Source: a virus. Taken from it: a DNA stretch of 40,812 nt. Both the position numbers and the translations under genes were made by a program. This document shows, piece by piece, positions 816 to 24,787 of the stretch. How positions within the stretch are numbered: position 1 is the stretch's first letter; the number at the start of each line of letters is the position of its first letter. Where the stretch lies: the IMG/VR virus record IMGVR_UViG_3300044617_000798, positions 1 through 40,812 of that record; one strand, written 5' to 3'. The notes under the pieces were generated by a model, which was not told the DNA's origin, did no database searches, and saw only the letters and a program-made list of their open reading frames with translations.

Positions 816-1120
816 CCAATCAGGTCGAACGTGAACGTGTAACGCGTCACATCGTTGGCAGCCGCAGTGGCTCCCTTGCCTGTGCATACTGCGTTGTATG
901 TCAAGCTCACGCCGCCGCCGCTGATGCTGAGATTGCCGTACTGGCCCCAGTTGAAATTCGCTGGAGCGAGTCCCTCGACGCTGACGCTGCCGCCGCTGGG
1001 TGCATAGCCGCCGCTGCGACTGACGGGCATGCCGCCGCCCAGCTCCAGCTGCACGCTGGTCAGCTCCGTGATCGAAAACCCGGCAAACGAAACCACACAG
1101 CCCTGCGAGTACGTCGCCAC
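812..1120 (-). CDS. Tail tube-like protein, second paralog
   Basis: 102-aa beta-rich protein starting MATYSQGCVVSFAGFSITEL. Its opening pattern (QG, hydrophobic pair, FAG, S.T, then alternating strands) matches the neighbouring 1135-1503 protein (QGTTLTFAGSSYTVTSITYS). Both carry an internal G.L.ISGG segment (YGNLSISGGG here, TGTLAISGGL there). They look like tandem duplicates of a small tail tube subunit. The stop overlaps the chaperone start (ATGA). Whether it is the main tube, a tube-terminal ring or a decorating subunit cannot be told from sequence. No signal peptide or membrane segment is present. Confidence 0.7.
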   Translation of the reverse strand: MATYSQGCVVSFAGFSITELTSVQLELGGGMPVSRSGGYAPSGGSVSVEGLAPANFNWGQYGNLSISGGGVSLTYNAVCTGKGATAAANDVTRYTFTFDLIG

Positions 1121-1134
1121 GGAAACCTCCGTGA

Positions 1135-1503
1135 CTAGACTCGCGCGACCCGGAACGTTGCCTGGCCACGCGTGGCGTCGTTGACCGTCAGCGTGACGCT
1201 CGACGAACTGACAGTGGCGGCCGCCGAAAGCGTCAGGCCGCCGGAAATCGCCAGCGTGCCGGTGGCCCCGTCAGTGATCGGCGCGGTGCCCAGGTACTCG
1301 ATGCTGACCTCGCGGCCCGTGTCGGTGGCGGAACCCTTGAGCGGTCGATCCATGGTGAGCACGTTGCTGCCCGCCGATTGCCCAAGGTGCGAAACGTCGA
1401 TGGTGTCGCCTGCCGACACGTCGTTCATCGAGTAGGTGATACTCGTGACCGTGTAGCTTGAGCCAGCAAAAGTAAGTGTCGTGCCCTGAGCGTGGCTTCC
1501 CAT
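1135..1503 (-). CDS. Major tail tube protein (putative)
   Basis: 122-aa protein starting MGSHAQGTTLTFAGSSYTVTS, dominated by short beta strands with Ser/Thr/Gly. It lies between a DUF3168-type tail completion gene and the tail chaperone, exactly where long-tailed phages encode their tube subunit. It is shorter than most tube proteins (about 150-250 aa). The motif MNDVSAGDTIDVSHLGQS and the loop after it fit the small gpV-like or phi13-like tube fold. The next gene appears to be a paralog. Position is strong evidence; the fold call is inference. Confidence 0.7.
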   Translation of the reverse strand: MGSHAQGTTLTFAGSSYTVTSITYSMNDVSAGDTIDVSHLGQSAGSNVLTMDRPLKGSATDTGREVSIEYLGTAPITDGATGTLAISGGLTLSAAATVSSSSVTLTVNDATRGQATFRVARV

Positions 1504-4290: not shown

Positions 4291-5091
4291 TCAGCCTCCC
4301 ATCAGAAGAAACGGGTGTATGGAGTCAGGCGAAGCCGCAGACGAAGCCGCCGCGACCGCCGAAGAAAAGTCGCTCACCTGCGCCGCCGTAATCGTCAGCG
4401 GATCGCTGCCTGCTGCGGCGTGACTGCTGGCGTGGCTGGCGGGAGTGAACGTGGTCGGCCTGTCTGTGATTCCATTCCACGAGGTCGTTCCAGCTGGCCC
4501 GGTTGCACCCTGCGGACCTGTGGCCCCCGTGTCGCCAGTTGGCCCTTGCGGACCGGTTGGGCCTGCCGGCCCCTGCGCGCCGGTTGCACCCTGCGGACCC
4601 TGAGCACCTGTCGCGCCCTGCGGGCCGGTCGGCCCTTGCGGTCCTGTCTCTCCCTGCGGTCCCGTGGCGCCCGTCACGCCTTGCGGCCCCTGTGGGCCTG
4701 TCTCGCCTGCTGGCCCCTGGGAGCCCGTGTCGCCTCGATCGCCCTTGTCGCCTTTCGCTCCCGTGGCTCCCGTGGCTCCAACCGCACCAGCTGGACCTGT
4801 GGCACCTTGCGGGCCGGTGTCGCCTTGCGGTCCTGTGGCACCAACCACGCCCTGCGGGCCGATAGCTCCCGTCGCACCTTGTGGCCCTTGCGGACCCGTC
4901 TCGCCCTGCGGACCCTGCGAACCCTGCGGACCAGTGGCTCCGGCCGCGCCCGCCGCGCCTGCTGCTCCGGCAGGCCCGAATCCGCCGGACGCACTCGCCG
5001 ACGTGCTCGAGCTCGTGACGGTTGCCGACACAGACGCACCGGATACGGTGGCTGTGATCGGGCTGCTGTTGACGGTTGCGGTGGTCGTCAC
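4291..5091 (-). CDS. Collagen-like fibre protein
   Basis: 266-aa protein, start GTG 5091-5089 overlapping the previous stop (GTGA). N-terminal ~35 residues ([18 protein letters not shown]...) are Ser/Thr/Val rich and resemble the N-terminus of the large fibre at 34081-36165. This is followed by about 50 uninterrupted Gly-X-Y triplets, many of the type GPQGPQG, GATGPQG and GEKG-like, and then by a short globular end ([22 protein letters not shown]). Collagen-like trimeric shafts are known in phage tail fibres and capsid fibres. Its position between the connector and head-tail joining genes, directly after a BppU-like protein, suggests a neck or head appendage. Confidence 0.85.
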
Positions 5092-19910: not shown

Positions 19911-21014
19911 TCACTCCGCCAGCGGCATAATCACGCCATGCACGTCGCCGCACTTGAGCCGCACGGCATCGCCCGGCTTCGCGGCCTGAATCTCCACATC
20001 CGGCTCGGCGTCCTTAGCCAAGCCAGCCAGGAAGTCGAGCAGAAACTTCGGATCCAGCTTCACTGTGGCAGCGTTGCCGAACTCCACGATGTCGCACGTC
20101 ACGCTGGACTCGCCAGCCTCGCTGCTCTGAGCGTGGAGGTGCAGGCCCTGCTTGGAGAACGAGAAGTCCACGCCCTTACTCGACTCGCTCGTCGTGATGG
20201 CCGCGGCCCGCGTGGCATCAGCCAGCAGACCACGGCTCACGGTCGTCGCCTTGGTCGAGTTCGTCGGGAATACATCTCGCCACCTCGGGAACCGGCCCTC
20301 GACCAGCCGGGCCGTCACCACGGTCGACCCGATGGTACAGACCAGCGTGTTCGTACTGGCCTCGAGCTCCACGAGCTCCTCGCCGCCGGCCTCCTTGGCG
20401 ATCTCGGACAGCATCTTGGCCACCCGTTGCGGAATCAACGTCTCAGAGTCATCGACGGCCAGGTCGTGCTCGGCCTCGGCCATCGTCAGCCGCCGGCCGT
20501 CTGTGGCCACGACAGAGACCTTGTCGCCCTTGACCTCGACCATTACGCCACCCAGTGCGTAGCGGCTGCTCTCGCGGTCGCAGGCTTCCACCACGGCATG
20601 CACCAAACCGGCAAACTGGTCGGCCGGAAGCTTGATCCGGTTGGTCGCGTTCTCGGCCGTCATGGTCGGGAACTCGGCCGGATCTTCCGTCGGCAGCGTC
20701 CAAGAGCCGCGCTTGGTCGACAGCACGCAGCTGGTGTCCTGCGGCGTGATGGTGATCTCGTCGTCACGGCACTCGGTCAGGATCGACCAGACCCGTGCGA
20801 GCGGAAGCAAGAGCGCCGGGCCGTCGAACGGCACGGCCGCCGTCACCTGCACCTCAAGGTCGGTGCCAACCACTTGGCCGCCCGAGATCAGCACGTTGCG
20901 GAGAATCGGCCGCGGCGTGCGGTCAGTCACCGCGCTTTTCACGATCGAAAATGCCGCCTTGAGCGCCGCGACGCTCAACACGATGCCATTGCGATTTTTG
21001 GTAGTCGTACCCAT
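19911..21014 (-). CDS. dnaN: DNA polymerase III beta-type sliding clamp
   Basis: 367-aa protein, start ATG 21014-21012 with AAAGGA eight bases upstream; length equals the bacterial clamp (E. coli 366 aa). Landmarks of the three-domain ring: TDRTPRPILRNVLIS near residue 30-45 (bacterial T..RSTLPIL.N), GTDLEVQVTAAV, domain-2 segment SSRYALGGVMVEVKGDKVSV with VATDGRRLTMAE, the EGRFPRWRDVFPT segment, and the C-terminal GVIMPLAE matching bacterial ..IMPMRL. It encircles DNA and tethers polymerase. No DNA polymerase gene is visible in the window, so it presumably recruits host Pol III or replaces the host clamp. Phage-encoded bacterial-type clamps are uncommon. Confidence 0.93.
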   Translation of the reverse strand: MGTTTKNRNGIVLSVAALKAAFSIVKSAVTDRTPRPILRNVLISGGQVVGTDLEVQVTAAVPFDGPALLLPLARVWSILTECRDDEITITPQDTSCVLSTKRGSWTLPTEDPAEFPTMTAENATNRIKLPADQFAGLVHAVVEACDRESSRYALGGVMVEVKGDKVSVVATDGRRLTMAEAEHDLAVDDSETLIPQRVAKMLSEIAKEAGGEELVELEASTNTLVCTIGSTVVTARLVEGRFPRWRDVFPTNSTKATTVSRGLLADATRAAAITTSESSKGVDFSFSKQGLHLHAQSSEAGESSVTCDIVEFGNAATVKLDPKFLLDFLAGLAKDAEPDVEIQAAKPGDAVRLKCGDVHGVIMPLAE

Positions 21015-21123
21015 GTGAGGAATCCTTTCGCTTGAGGGAAGCGCCGACGGCGATGCCGAGGGCAAAAGTCAATCCGTTGACCAGAACACCAGTAGCTAGA
21101 AACACTGCGTTTTCGACAGTCAT
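20923..21123 (-). CDS. Small membrane protein overlapping the clamp start
   Basis: 66-aa frame starting MTVENAVFLATGVLVNGLTF, with one clear membrane span (residues ~6-28) and a basic, polar remainder. The ATG overlaps the LexA-like stop (ATGA), as for most real genes here, but the last ~30 codons overlap the clamp gene in another frame. The first 36 codons fill the otherwise empty 106-base gap. Possible small regulator or exclusion peptide; function unknown. Confidence 0.45.
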   Translation of the reverse strand: MTVENAVFLATGVLVNGLTFALGIAVGASLKRKDSSHGYDYQKSQWHRVERRGAQGGIFDREKRGD

Positions 21124-21359
21124 GCGTTCACCTTGATCCCACGCACCGCGTGCGGTTTGCGGCTGATCCAGCCCTTTTTCTCCAAGGCGTCCAGGTGCAC
21201 AGTTACGCCGTGCGGCGATTTGATCGACAACGCTGTGGCGATCTCCCGCACGGTCGGCGAATAGAGCTCGATGTTCGCCACGATGAACTCGTAAACCTGT
21301 TGTTGCCGCGCTGTCAGCGGCGCTTTCTCTGCCGTGGTCATTTGCTGCTCCTGCGTCAT
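21120..21359 (-). CDS. Stand-alone LexA-type DNA-binding domain
   Basis: 79-aa protein, start ATG 21359-21357 overlapping the preceding stop. It is essentially the LexA N-terminal winged helix: LTARQQQVYEFIVANIELYS, then PTVREIATALSIKSPHGVTV (recognition helix region) and HLDALEKKGWISRKPHAVRG. The C-terminal peptidase/dimerisation domain of LexA is absent, so it cannot self-cleave in the SOS response. It may compete for or read host LexA-type operators, or repress phage promoters. The long upstream in-frame extension is out of phase with the real genes there and was rejected. Confidence 0.8.
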   Translation of the reverse strand: MTQEQQMTTAEKAPLTARQQQVYEFIVANIELYSPTVREIATALSIKSPHGVTVHLDALEKKGWISRKPHAVRGIKVNA

Positions 21360-21580
21360 GGTGTCACCTCGTTCAACAATTTCGTTGCCGTCTCCTGGCA
21401 CAGCGTGTCGCCCTGGGCCAGGTCGAACGTGTGCGGGTAGTGCTTGAGCAGCCGCCGGGCCTCCTGCCGGACGACCGCAGGGATGCCCTTGAGACCGTCC
21501 GGCACGTACGGGCTCGATAGCCGCACAAGGAACGCACGCGTCCAGACGATCGCGGCAGTGCGCTCGGATGGCATGGTCAT
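21356..21580 (-). CDS. BPSL0761-like protein
   Basis: 74-aa protein starting MTMPSERTAAIVWTRAFLVR. The pattern MTMP.ERTRA...TR.FL..L........VP...R.EAR.LLRHYP..FDL (here RQEARRLLKHYPHTFDLAQG) is that of the small BPSL0761 family found in proteobacterial genomes and prophages. No function is established for it. It is coupled by ATGA overlaps to both neighbours. Confidence 0.6.
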   Translation of the reverse strand: MTMPSERTAAIVWTRAFLVRLSSPYVPDGLKGIPAVVRQEARRLLKHYPHTFDLAQGDTLCQETATKLLNEVTP

Positions 21581-22152
21581 GCGCCGGCCTCCTGGTGGGT
21601 GGCTTTCCTGCCTTGCTCGTCGGAGGGCAGGAGCCCGTCAGGGCTTCCGCCCTCAACGGTTCCTTGAGGAACCTTGAGGACAATTGAGGAATAGGGGGCA
21701 CACCCTGTGTGCGCGCTGGACACACCCGGTGACCCCTGCGCGCACACCCCGTGTCCGGAGCGCACACCGGGGGTGACCGGGGGGGGCACGGCTTGTGCCC
21801 GGGTGGTGGACACGGTGTGTGACCGGGGGGGGCACGGCTTGTCACCCCCCTGCGGGACACGGAAGCGGTACTTCTGGCGCTTTCCGGGGTCTGCTGGCCC
21901 GACTTCGAGGATGCCAGCTTCGACAAGCTGGGTAAGCCCGCGACGCACAGTGGTCGGATGCACTCCAGCCATTGTCGCCGCACCACGCACCGACATCCTG
22001 AAGGTGCACTTGCCGTAGTCGGCCCAGCAAAGGGCAATGCCGAACACCAGGCGACCCTCTGAGCGCACGCGAGCTAGGGCTCCACTGCGGATGATCCGCT
22101 CGTGGCGCCTCCGCATTTCGCCTCTGCCGGGCGTTTCGCTTCCTTGCGTCAT
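21577..22152 (-). CDS. HTH replication-initiator-like protein carrying the iterons
   Basis: 191-aa protein starting MTQGSETPGRGEMRRRHERI. Residues ~10-100 form a winged helix-turn-helix (VFGIALCWADYGKCTFRMSV, then AATMAGVHPTTVRRGLTQLV and EAGILEVGPADPGKRQKYRF). The C-terminal half is low-complexity (Pro, Gly, Ser, Cys) and is encoded by the ~23-bp DNA repeats at 21698-21862. Since 23 is not a multiple of three, the repeat is a DNA feature, not a protein repeat. The gene directly follows the DnaB-type helicase. An initiator gene with its origin inside the coding sequence, next to the helicase gene, recalls lambda O/P. Initiator function is inferred. Confidence 0.65.
   Translation of the reverse strand: MTQGSETPGRGEMRRRHERIIRSGALARVRSEGRLVFGIALCWADYGKCTFRMSVRGAATMAGVHPTTVRRGLTQLVEAGILEVGPADPGKRQKYRFRVPQGGDKPCPPRSHTVSTTRAQAVPPPVTPGVRSGHGVCAQGSPGVSSAHTGCAPYSSIVLKVPQGTVEGGSPDGLLPSDEQGRKATHQEAGA
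21661..21863. repeat. Iteron array and adjacent 10-bp repeats (candidate replication origin)
   Basis: Eight degenerate units beginning GCACAC, GACACA or G(G)CACGG start at 21698, 21719, 21742, 21762, 21786, 21809, 21832 and 21856, a spacing of 20-24 bases (about two helical turns). Two of them (21774-21796 and 21820-21842) are perfect 23-base copies exactly 46 apart. Next to them three 10-bp units ending TTGAGGA run from 21661 to 21690. The whole lies inside the HTH/initiator-like gene. Iterons plus a neighbouring less GC-rich stretch are the layout of lambda-type origins. Confidence 0.6.
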
Positions 22153-22155
22153 ATG

Positions 22156-23451
22156 TCACTCCCAGTTGTCAAAGGCCTTCTCGCGGCCAGCAGCAGCGTC
22201 TGTGAACGTCTGTAGGCGACCGTCGAACATCGTGTCAGCGTCGAGACACTGGCCGTGCCTGTTCTTCTTGCAGGCCCACTTCACCGACCGCAGGCCGTCC
22301 TGGTCCTCGCGGTCCTCGGCAACTCCAAGCAGCAGCAGGTCGGCAGCGAAGTCGAGCTCGCTAGATTCCTTGCCGATCGCACCGATCCGCGTCTCGGCAG
22401 ACACGATCTTGGACACGTTGGAGACACCAACTACGGCCACTCCGTGCTCGAGCGACAGCCGTCGCAGGCGACGCACAACGCCATCGATCTCTGCCCGGCG
22501 GTCTTGGGCATCGCCAAGCTCCACCAGCTGCACGTAGTCGATAACGACGAGCTTGGCCTTTGACTGAATTACCTCCGCTTCGATCCGATCAATCGACAGT
22601 GGTGGCTTGACGATCTTGAGCCGGTCTTCAATGTGCATGGCCAGGCTAATGACAGACCCGCGGGCCAGCTCTGTCCGCTGCTCGGCGCTGGACATGCTGA
22701 CGGGTGCCTGTGAGCCGCGAGTGGACCAGTGGCAGACTGCACGCCTGGCAAACGCTTCCAGCGTCATTTCGCCCAGACACCAGATCGCCACGAGGCTGCG
22801 GTCGAACTCCATCGCGCCCAGCAGTAGCTGCAGGGAAAGTGCGCTCTTGCCGACCGATGGCGGGGCAGCCAGTACGGTTAGGCCGCCAACCGGAAACCCA
22901 CCGCCAAGGCGGTCAAATGGATGAAACTGCGTGGGAATGGTCGGCACGGCCTCCATCCGCAGGTACTCGTCCAAGGCATCCTGTAGCGTTGGCGTCCGGC
23001 TGTCGGTCTCAATCGCACTTGCCGCATCCGACACGGCCCGAGCCGCTTCCGATATCTCGGCCGGAGATGCACCGGCTTCCACCAGTGCGGACAGATCTTG
23101 GGCTGCCCTCTCAGCCTGCAGCCGGCTGTAGTCCGCACGCAGCTCGTGGACGTACCTTTCGGCACCCAAACTGTACGCACACAGGTTGGCTGCGCCTTTC
23201 GCCACAACGTCTATCACAACGTCTCTGCACCTTCTGTAGTGCACGTCGCGAGTGATGTCGCTCATTGTGGGCTGCTTACAGACAGCCAGCACGCAACGCA
23301 CTAAGCGAAAAGCGTCGGCAGTGCCTTCACCTACGAACATCTCCGGCTTCAGCTTTGAACAGACACCGCGCCCGCGGTCTGGGTTCTGCAAGGCCAGCTC
23401 ATAAAGAGCTGTCAGCACGTCGAACTCAGTCTGCACTAAAACGTCATTCAT
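22156..23451 (-). CDS. DnaB-type replicative helicase
   Basis: 431-aa protein, start ATG 23451-23449 (MNDVLVQTEFDVLTALYELA), overlapping the zinc-ribbon stop. An N-terminal helical domain is followed by the RecA-like core: FDRLGGGFPVGGLTVLAAPP, Walker A PSVGKSA (residues ~198-204), the Glu strand VAIWCLGEMTLEAFA, Walker B KLVVIDYVQL (~307-316), and a motif-4-like block with VGVSNVSKI and SSELDFAADLLLL. It unwinds DNA at the phage origin; the presumed initiator gene follows four bases later. The family usually measures 430-470 aa, so it is complete. A longer in-frame start at 23754 crosses two other genes and was rejected. Confidence 0.92.
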   Translation of the reverse strand: MNDVLVQTEFDVLTALYELALQNPDRGRGVCSKLKPEMFVGEGTADAFRLVRCVLAVCKQPTMSDITRDVHYRRCRDVVIDVVAKGAANLCAYSLGAERYVHELRADYSRLQAERAAQDLSALVEAGASPAEISEAARAVSDAASAIETDSRTPTLQDALDEYLRMEAVPTIPTQFHPFDRLGGGFPVGGLTVLAAPPSVGKSALSLQLLLGAMEFDRSLVAIWCLGEMTLEAFARRAVCHWSTRGSQAPVSMSSAEQRTELARGSVISLAMHIEDRLKIVKPPLSIDRIEAEVIQSKAKLVVIDYVQLVELGDAQDRRAEIDGVVRRLRRLSLEHGVAVVGVSNVSKIVSAETRIGAIGKESSELDFAADLLLLGVAEDREDQDGLRSVKWACKKNRHGQCLDADTMFDGRLQTFTDAAAGREKAFDNWE

Positions 23452-23630
23452 GATCGGTCTCCAGCAAGATGAGTGTTTCGCGCACATTGCTCGCAGAGCA
23501 CGCCGTAAACAAGACCGCCTTCGCCAACGACGGCCGTGACGGTATCGCTCGGGAACAGCAGGATTGGCTCGAAACACTGATTGCACTGCCACTCGACTGA
23601 ACCATCCGTGTTTGTGATGTATGGTTTCAT
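23448..23630 (-). CDS. Zinc-ribbon microprotein
   Basis: 60-aa protein, start ATG 23630-23628 (MKPYITNTDGSVEWQCNQCF) overlapping the HNH stop; its stop overlaps the helicase start. Two CxxC pairs (CNQC and CEQC, ~35 residues apart) around a beta-rich core form a small zinc ribbon. Its place between an inserted HNH gene and the helicase means it is co-translated with the helicase. Function unknown. Confidence 0.65.
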   Translation of the reverse strand: MKPYITNTDGSVEWQCNQCFEPILLFPSDTVTAVVGEGGLVYGVLCEQCARNTHLAGDRS

Positions 23631-24787
23631 GCGTTGCACTCCTCTTGAATATGCAAGTCGCTGTCGCTCTTCCCGTTGTTGCAGGGGTGGCAAAGAGTCC
23701 ACAGATTCTGCGGAGTTGTCTTTCCGCCCTTAGCGACGGGCACTTTGTGATCAACCTCTAACTGAGCGCCGTCGCTTGCGGTCGCTCCGCAGAGTTGGCA
23801 CCGATAGCGGTCGCGATTGAGAATGAAAAAGCGAAGTCGCTTTGGTGTTGTCTGCCTTGTCGCCTTGCAGGCTGGCTGCCTCGCGATTAGCTCTTCTTTA
23901 CTTTCACGACCAAAGAATCCAGTTGGAACCTTTGACATATCGCGAGGTATTACTACGCACCCAGAGCGAACACGAAGCTCTGGAATCGACCTTCCTGGGC
24001 CAGTGTGAAACAGTGCCAAGTGTGGCATGCGCCAGTGCGGGCACGCCTGCCTCTCGACTTCAAGGTTACGCCCGACATCAAACGAGCGACCTAGTCTCTT
24101 GGCGGCACGCTCTTCTAGCCAACGTTTCCTCGCATCATCTGACGTGGCGTCGTACTCTTCGCGATCTGCCGAAAGAATTGCAGGCGTTATAAGGTCTGTC
24201 CCGCGAGACAAAAGCCCAATAAAAGCAAGCAGGCGGATCAGAAAATTGGTCCTGTGGCTGAACGAAGAACATGCCGCCTGCGAGGTGACGTCGATTGCCG
24301 TGTCTGCGATTACCTCATCCTTTAATGATTGCGGCGCTGCATAGACCCACAGACTCCCGTCCTGATCAAGTGTCTGTATATGACCTGCAAGCTCAATTTT
24401 GCGAGCCAGATATAGCGTTTCTTTGCGGGTGCGATGAAACGCAACCTCAGTCTTTTCAGCAGCATCGGATGGCACTCTAGCAAGCACCGTACGCACGCCG
24501 AACGGCTCGTGCCCCTGCGCGAACCGAAGCAGCAGTCGGCGATGCGGAAACAGAATGTTTCCCCACTTCATGTTTAATGATGTCTTAAGGCACAGCTCGA
24601 CCGCGACAGGGTAGACGTTGTAGTAAGGTCTTTCGTGTGTGAGCCATCCGAGCTCAATTACCCCAAGCAAAGCGGTCATGCCTTCTTCGTCTTTAGTCTG
24701 TGGCTCAAGCATGCAATGCCGGATGTATTCTTCGCTCGTGCCTTTGTAAGCCGGGTCTCGTAGCGTTCTGTAATCGTGAAACCTCAT
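23627..24787 (-). CDS. HNH endonuclease with long N-terminal domain
   Basis: 386-aa protein, start ATG 24787-24785 (MRFHDYRTLRDPAYKGTSEE) with GGAGG five to six bases upstream. The N-terminal ~300 residues have no recognised domain. The C-terminus is a complete HNH nuclease: RFFILNRDRYRCQLCGATAS, then LEVDHKVPVAKGGKTTPQNL (D-H, N) and WTLCHPCNNGKSD. The sequence is visibly more AT-rich than its neighbours and interrupts a replication operon. It is likely a mobile homing-type nuclease; coupling overlaps at both ends show it is integrated into translation of the operon. Confidence 0.85.
   Translation of the reverse strand: MRFHDYRTLRDPAYKGTSEEYIRHCMLEPQTKDEEGMTALLGVIELGWLTHERPYYNVYPVAVELCLKTSLNMKWGNILFPHRRLLLRFAQGHEPFGVRTVLARVPSDAAEKTEVAFHRTRKETLYLARKIELAGHIQTLDQDGSLWVYAAPQSLKDEVIADTAIDVTSQAACSSFSHRTNFLIRLLAFIGLLSRGTDLITPAILSADREEYDATSDDARKRWLEERAAKRLGRSFDVGRNLEVERQACPHWRMPHLALFHTGPGRSIPELRVRSGCVVIPRDMSKVPTGFFGRESKEELIARQPACKATRQTTPKRLRFFILNRDRYRCQLCGATASDGAQLEVDHKVPVAKGGKTTPQNLWTLCHPCNNGKSDSDLHIQEECNA

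Follow-up and report, generated by a model that had tools for sequence, protein, structure and literature searches.

A putative replication origin inside a winged-HTH initiator-like gene of an uncultured temperate-type tailed phage

A DNA stretch of 40,812 nucleotides (the window; IMG/VR virus record IMGVR_UViG_3300044617_000798, positions 1 to 40,812) was analyzed and found to contain an array of seven palindromic iterons next to a low-stability element. Array and element together very probably represent a phage replication origin located inside the gene of its own initiator. That the phage is a tailed one of the temperate type is indicated by genes for integrase, terminase, portal, capsid and tail proteins, all of which are present in the window. 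The origin reading is drawn from the sequence features of the locus and its relatives: the conserved spacing of the units, their indifference to codon phase, the adjacent low-stability element, the linkage to a helicase gene and the initiator-like matches of the encoded protein. The features are as follows.

22156..23754, minus strand: DnaB-like replicative helicase (DnaB_C E 1.2e-23, phrog_19)
21577..22152, minus strand: winged-HTH initiator-like gene, 191 aa (Pfam HTH_Crp_2, weak; PHROG matches across the family; AlphaFold2)
21830..21846, minus strand: iteron 1, GGTGACAAGCCGTGCCC, left half most diverged
21808..21824, minus strand: iteron 2, GGTCACACACCGTGTCC
21784..21800, minus strand: iteron 3, GGGCACAAGCCGTGCCC
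21762..21778, minus strand: iteron 4, GGTCACCCCCGGTGTGC
21740..21756, minus strand: iteron 5, GGACACGGGGTGTGCGC
21718..21734, minus strand: iteron 6, GGTCACCGGGTGTGTCC
21696..21712, minus strand: iteron 7, GCACACAGGGTGTGCCC, adjoins the low-stability element
21650..21695, minus strand: putative DNA unwinding element of low stability with three CCTCAA repeats at 10-bp spacing
21651..21679, minus strand: hairpin within this element, its 12-bp stem interrupted by a single bulged base, its TCAA loop formed by the third repeat
19911..21065, minus strand: DNA polymerase III beta sliding clamp of the same replication module (profile matches)

The iteron array and its reading frame

The array consists of seven 17-bp imperfect palindromes (GNN-CAC-N5-GTG-NNC) on the minus strand (21696-21846) with start-to-start spacings of 22, 24, 22, 22, 22, and 22, and is contained within the 191-codon winged-HTH frame. 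An earlier note on this DNA had described eight units at 21661-21863; an eighth unit was unsupported at 22-bp spacing. The two perfect 23-base copies, 46 bp apart, that the same note had reported were recovered as the last 23 positions of two near-identical 33-nt copies (21764-21796 and 21810-21842, 91% overall). Counted across the whole window, single units are no more frequent than chance would give (38 found, 37 expected); the special signal lies in their clustering and phasing.

Protein searches of viral contigs identified 27 loci with the winged-HTH gene, and all of them (27/27) contain five to seven units at 22-bp spacing with one interval of 23 or 24 bp. A DNA-only scan of 2.9 million viral contigs for four CAC-N5-GTG cores at exact 22-bp spacing returned 46 stretches, every one of which (46/46) carries the winged-HTH gene with the array inside its frame. 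Removal of duplicates left 44 family members. Aligning the array with relatives, which had been proposed as a check, showed that the spacing is kept down to the most distant members at ~30-40% protein identity. Since the family sequences are related, these counts are not independent, and since part of the set was found via the CAC/GTG core, those six bases are conserved there by construction. No search template included the outermost G and C of the 17-mer, which are also conserved and carry 1.7-2.0 bits in each codon phase. The four-unit signature locates the putative origin to the base in dozens of uncultured phages without relatives in the phage records that were searched (tblastn of the initiator). 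A literature search of partial coverage found no description of the winged-HTH initiator family.

Two trivial sources of a regular array were considered. An ordinary tandem duplication was ruled out because the units have the palindromic core in common and differ in the rest, and because the layout is kept across relatives of such low protein identity. A generic 22-bp satellite was set aside: the same DNA pattern was found in 105 stretches of bacterial and archaeal genomes, mostly tandem satellites (many in Prevotella), none of which belongs to the winged-HTH initiator family. As a separate observation, Prevotella-type genomes contain numerous separate arrays, spread over different contigs and outside the initiator family, whose palindromic units of ~22 bp resemble CACANNNTGTGCA (genome contigs L090, L093, L107, L119, L129-L136, L155, and others). 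The units of these arrays are often diverged (65-85% alike), indicating that the arrays are not merely recent satellites.

The earlier note had argued from the mismatch between period and codons that selection acts on the DNA. This part stands. A period of 22 bp is not divisible by three, and the iteron units occupy all three codon phases. When synonymous codons were re-drawn or permuted with the protein kept, the chain score reached at most 48 compared with the observed 52 (0/2000 in each null), and codon shuffling of the C-terminal half gave scores of at most 19. Repeats driven by the protein sequence were rejected on the basis of the synonymous nulls and the three-phase placement.

The reading frame is selected as well, as motif variants that would create an in-frame stop are avoided or flipped. 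Right halves of the form GTGA were found once among 70 units at the phase giving an in-frame TGA compared with 46 out of 214 elsewhere (Fisher p 1e-5; the sequences are related and not independent). The single exception is the actual stop codon of L077, a distant member (initiator at 820-1203, minus strand) whose gene ends inside the array while perfect iterons continue beyond the stop; all six of its units match the full core consensus. L077 is a natural separation of the putative origin from the coding sequence. The spacer GTAGC was absent from the phase that would give TAG but present 19 times at the other phases, and its reverse complement GCTAC occurred 10 times at that phase and three times at the others, which suggests that the sites would work in either orientation. 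Both stop avoidance and spacer flipping fit freely flippable palindromic binding sites, here putative, that lie in a translated frame. One stretch of DNA acts as code and carries a candidate control signal, and the avoided stops and flipped palindromes display both pressures together.

The winged-HTH protein and its gene neighborhood

An AlphaFold2 prediction made with 36 family members shows a confident winged helix at residues 11-98 (pLDDT above 90), no folded region after residue 101, and predicted disorder in the array-coded residues 101-176 (pLDDT about 46-56). Protein conservation is weak in this array-coded half, and the initiator ends within or just after the array in two groups (L025-L027 and L077). 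A PHROG "replication initiation protein" was matched by eight of the 36 members (best replication-initiation or O-like E 1.9e-6), and several members displayed weak matches to the O-like profiles phrog_678, 345, and 391 (best E 8e-5); the 191-aa protein of the analyzed phage itself matched none of the PHROG O-like profiles. Matches in a viral fold library include the lambda GpO N-terminal protein and replication protein O. The description of the protein as a member of a family unrelated to lambda O, as given in the earlier note, is therefore not clearly correct. The top PDB Foldseek match is 4pql (4pql_B; E 4.5e-3, Z 8.8, rmsd 3.4 over 86 residues), which we take to be the N-terminal domain of a plasmid RepA initiator; the further Rep entries 4pt7 and 5kbj are also listed, and the score of 4pql is tied with those of the CRP and CodY winged helices. 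Pfam RepA_N was not matched at E 0.01 by any of the 36 members.

Members that lack the recognition-helix Arg70 (L056, L062, L065, L071, and L083) mostly have CA/TA half-sites in place of the GG/CG types. A co-variation of initiator and iterons was not accepted from these data, as L077 breaks the rule and relatedness was uncontrolled.

The winged-HTH gene comes directly after the DnaB-type helicase gene, in agreement with the earlier note, and the helicase gene is located immediately upstream of the initiator gene in all 42 family loci that have upstream sequence. The helicase frame (22156-23754) contains ~100 extra N-terminal codons that are uncovered in relatives; the true start is probably the ATG near 23451. 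A sliding clamp gene is located downstream of the initiator in 24 out of 44 family loci. The window also encodes an orphan DNA-binding domain of the LexA type, 79 aa long and without the protease part (21120-21359, minus strand; Pfam LexA_DNA_bind E 1.1e-19), which has kept its place close downstream of the initiator gene in several relatives (L002, L003, and L010). A 66-aa probable one-pass membrane protein with the pattern FxLGxxVGxSxxRKDS (20923-21123, minus strand) is kept between the LexA-like and clamp genes (relatives L003, L005, L010, and L011).

The neighborhood bears on a reading in which the winged-HTH protein binds a centromere-like partition site or a packaging site. Small DNA-binding proteins on iteron arrays do form partition sites, and in some small terminase subunits an HTH domain binds to arrays. 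The array is however linked to the helicase, clamp, and RusA genes, with the large terminase gene away at 10.5-12.1 kb, and a ParA gene was absent from the proteins scanned. Together with the match to initiator-type profiles and the presence of a low-stability element that neither role needs, this makes a partition or packaging site highly improbable.

GC skew, which had been proposed as a check for an origin at ~21.7 kb, showed no switch at this position; GC skew and third-position skew are both too weak in this genome to place an origin. A search for end repeats on the contig found none. A host search in ~780 genomes of two phyla picked via unrelated loci returned nothing and carries little weight.

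The low-stability element and its hairpin

The triple 10-bp repeat adjoining the array was confirmed as three CCTCAA copies on the minus strand at about 21662-21691. The element that holds them (21650..21695) is among the weakest duplexes nearby: of the 40-bp windows up to 1.5 kb away in either direction, only 0.1% are less stable. Its sequence is fully conserved in L002 and L003. Across the family a weak segment of 45-50 nt begins ~17 nt from where the core of the last iteron starts. In 31 out of 43 loci it contains the 40-bp window of lowest stability in the surrounding 3 kb, and in all 43 it falls within the weakest 1.6%. Short repeats 10-11 bp apart are found in the element throughout, CCTCAA in the clade of the analyzed phage and YCAGT or similar in others.

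A hairpin inside this element had not been described in the earlier note. Folding of 21651..21679 as DNA gave a z of -4.0, a free energy that no shuffle equaled (0/200). Owing to the bulged stem base, this hairpin does not stand out from its shuffles under gapless scoring. In the family the hairpin loop lies ~30 nt after the last iteron. Among 33 unique sequences, 93.7% of the stem cells are Watson-Crick pairs compared with 43% (maximum 54%) after re-dealing of the right arms, and every stem position is found as several pair types. The inner stem cells (n = 330) comprise 309 Watson-Crick pairs, 21 other mismatches, and no G-T pair, which points to selection of the hairpin as DNA (single strand or cruciform) rather than as an RNA stem. 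Many relatives contain a second GC-rich hairpin ~20 nt after the first which, taken singly, mostly fails to beat composition shuffles.

The hairpin is relevant to two further readings. In one, the array is a multi-operator at which the winged-HTH protein binds inside its own gene as a regulator that silences or tunes the replication operon, with the hairpin serving as an RNA attenuator or in translational control. Winged-HTH proteins with operator arrays are common as regulators, which counts against an origin; the fold matches CRP, CodY, and MarR-type regulators as well as initiators, the LexA-type gene lies downstream, and the hairpin would be stable as RNA too. On the other hand, the array is located ~300 nt into the gene, an even row of seven units next to the least stable duplex of the region has the layout of an origin, the stem is not followed by a T-run, and covariation with 0 out of 330 inner G-T pairs is unexpected for a selected RNA stem. 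Regulation of this kind is considered unlikely.

The other reading, a rolling-circle-type origin with the conserved hairpin as nick site, is modeled on plasmid pT181, in which the dso and its cruciform are located in the rep gene (PMC5703833). Both a hairpin beside initiator sites and a site within the rep gene are common to pT181 and the phage locus. However, the 191-aa protein consists of a winged helix and a disordered tail and lacks a nuclease domain by Pfam and structure prediction, the linked helicase is of the hexameric type, and the sequence and loop of the hairpin differ between clades without a constant nick sequence. A rolling-circle mechanism is thus extremely improbable.

A model of initiation and comparison with known systems

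The steps of a theta-type initiation at the putative origin can be proposed from its architecture and from precedent. The dyad symmetry and the 22-bp spacing suggest that the winged-HTH protein binds as dimers to the seven iterons, about two helical turns apart. The assembled complex would strain and then melt the adjacent element, a step suggested by its weak duplex. The exposed strand, which could fold the conserved hairpin, would receive the DnaB-like helicase encoded by the neighboring phage gene, and theta replication would then begin, using the sliding clamp of the phage. The half of the protein that the array encodes may be a disordered linker or tail that is tolerated because the DNA is needed, a view based on the disorder prediction, the weak protein conservation and the stop codon inside the intact array of L077.

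A hairpin whose shape is conserved within an unwinding element raises the question of how the helicase is placed, and the short initiator contains no recognizable helicase-loading domain. One tentative possibility, somewhat more doubtful than probable, is that the hairpin, folded in single-stranded DNA or extruded as a cruciform, is a DNA-level signal that is recognized by shape rather than sequence and guides priming or the loading of the helicase. In a large group of uncultured phages the origin would then have two parts, iterons and a structural loading site, served by a minimal initiator that has a winged helix but lacks a loader domain. If true, this would be a distinct way of starting theta replication.

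The plan of phage lambda, an initiator gene containing its own iterons, had been proposed for this locus in the earlier note and is the one best supported by the comparative evidence. The lambda origin lies in gene O, where four inverted-repeat iterons of 18-19 bp precede an AT-rich segment of 38-39 bp; in lambda and Stx-phage origins the iterons are imperfect inverted repeats bound by dimers and vary in number (4 or 6) (PMC6022878, PMC3349717, PMC7466680). The putative origin described here likewise has imperfect inverted repeats in the middle of an initiator gene with the unwinding segment on one side. It differs in the number of units (5-7), the motif (CAC-N5-GTG), the 22-bp spacing, and the GC-rich genome. 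In lambda O a C-terminal domain recruits the helicase through P; here, the tail encoded by the array extends almost to the C-terminus, and no folded domain for helicase contact is predicted. Further differences from lambda are the conserved, covarying hairpin that occupies the unwinding segment and the DnaB-like helicase and sliding clamp that the phage itself encodes.

A likeness also exists to the RepA_N theta plasmid pSK41, since the putative origin is located centrally inside an initiator gene with an N-terminal winged-HTH and the best Foldseek match, tied with CRP and CodY, is to the N-terminal domain of a plasmid initiator. In pSK41 the origin is central in rep, is bound by the N-terminal winged-HTH domain and encodes a linker segment that is dispensable (PMC5703833). 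pSK41 differs in being a plasmid with four Rep boxes and a further C-terminal domain, and no sequence-level membership of the phage family in the pSK41-type RepA_N group was found. Tandem initiator sites of ~22 bp are shared with the iteron origins of Rep_3-type plasmids such as RK2 and pSK639, the latter of which has five 22-bp repeats as initiator sites (PMC5703833), and RK2-type origins also contain an AT-rich unwinding element; in contrast to the phage array, Rep_3-type arrays sit outside the rep coding sequence and belong to another initiator family. As far as sequence can tell, the best reading is that the origin works like ori-lambda or that of pSK41, with an added conserved hairpin.

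Elsewhere in the window, tandem repeats of 27/54 bp were found at 4562-4932 within a minus-strand gene region, a candidate for a repetitive, possibly collagen-like, tail protein.
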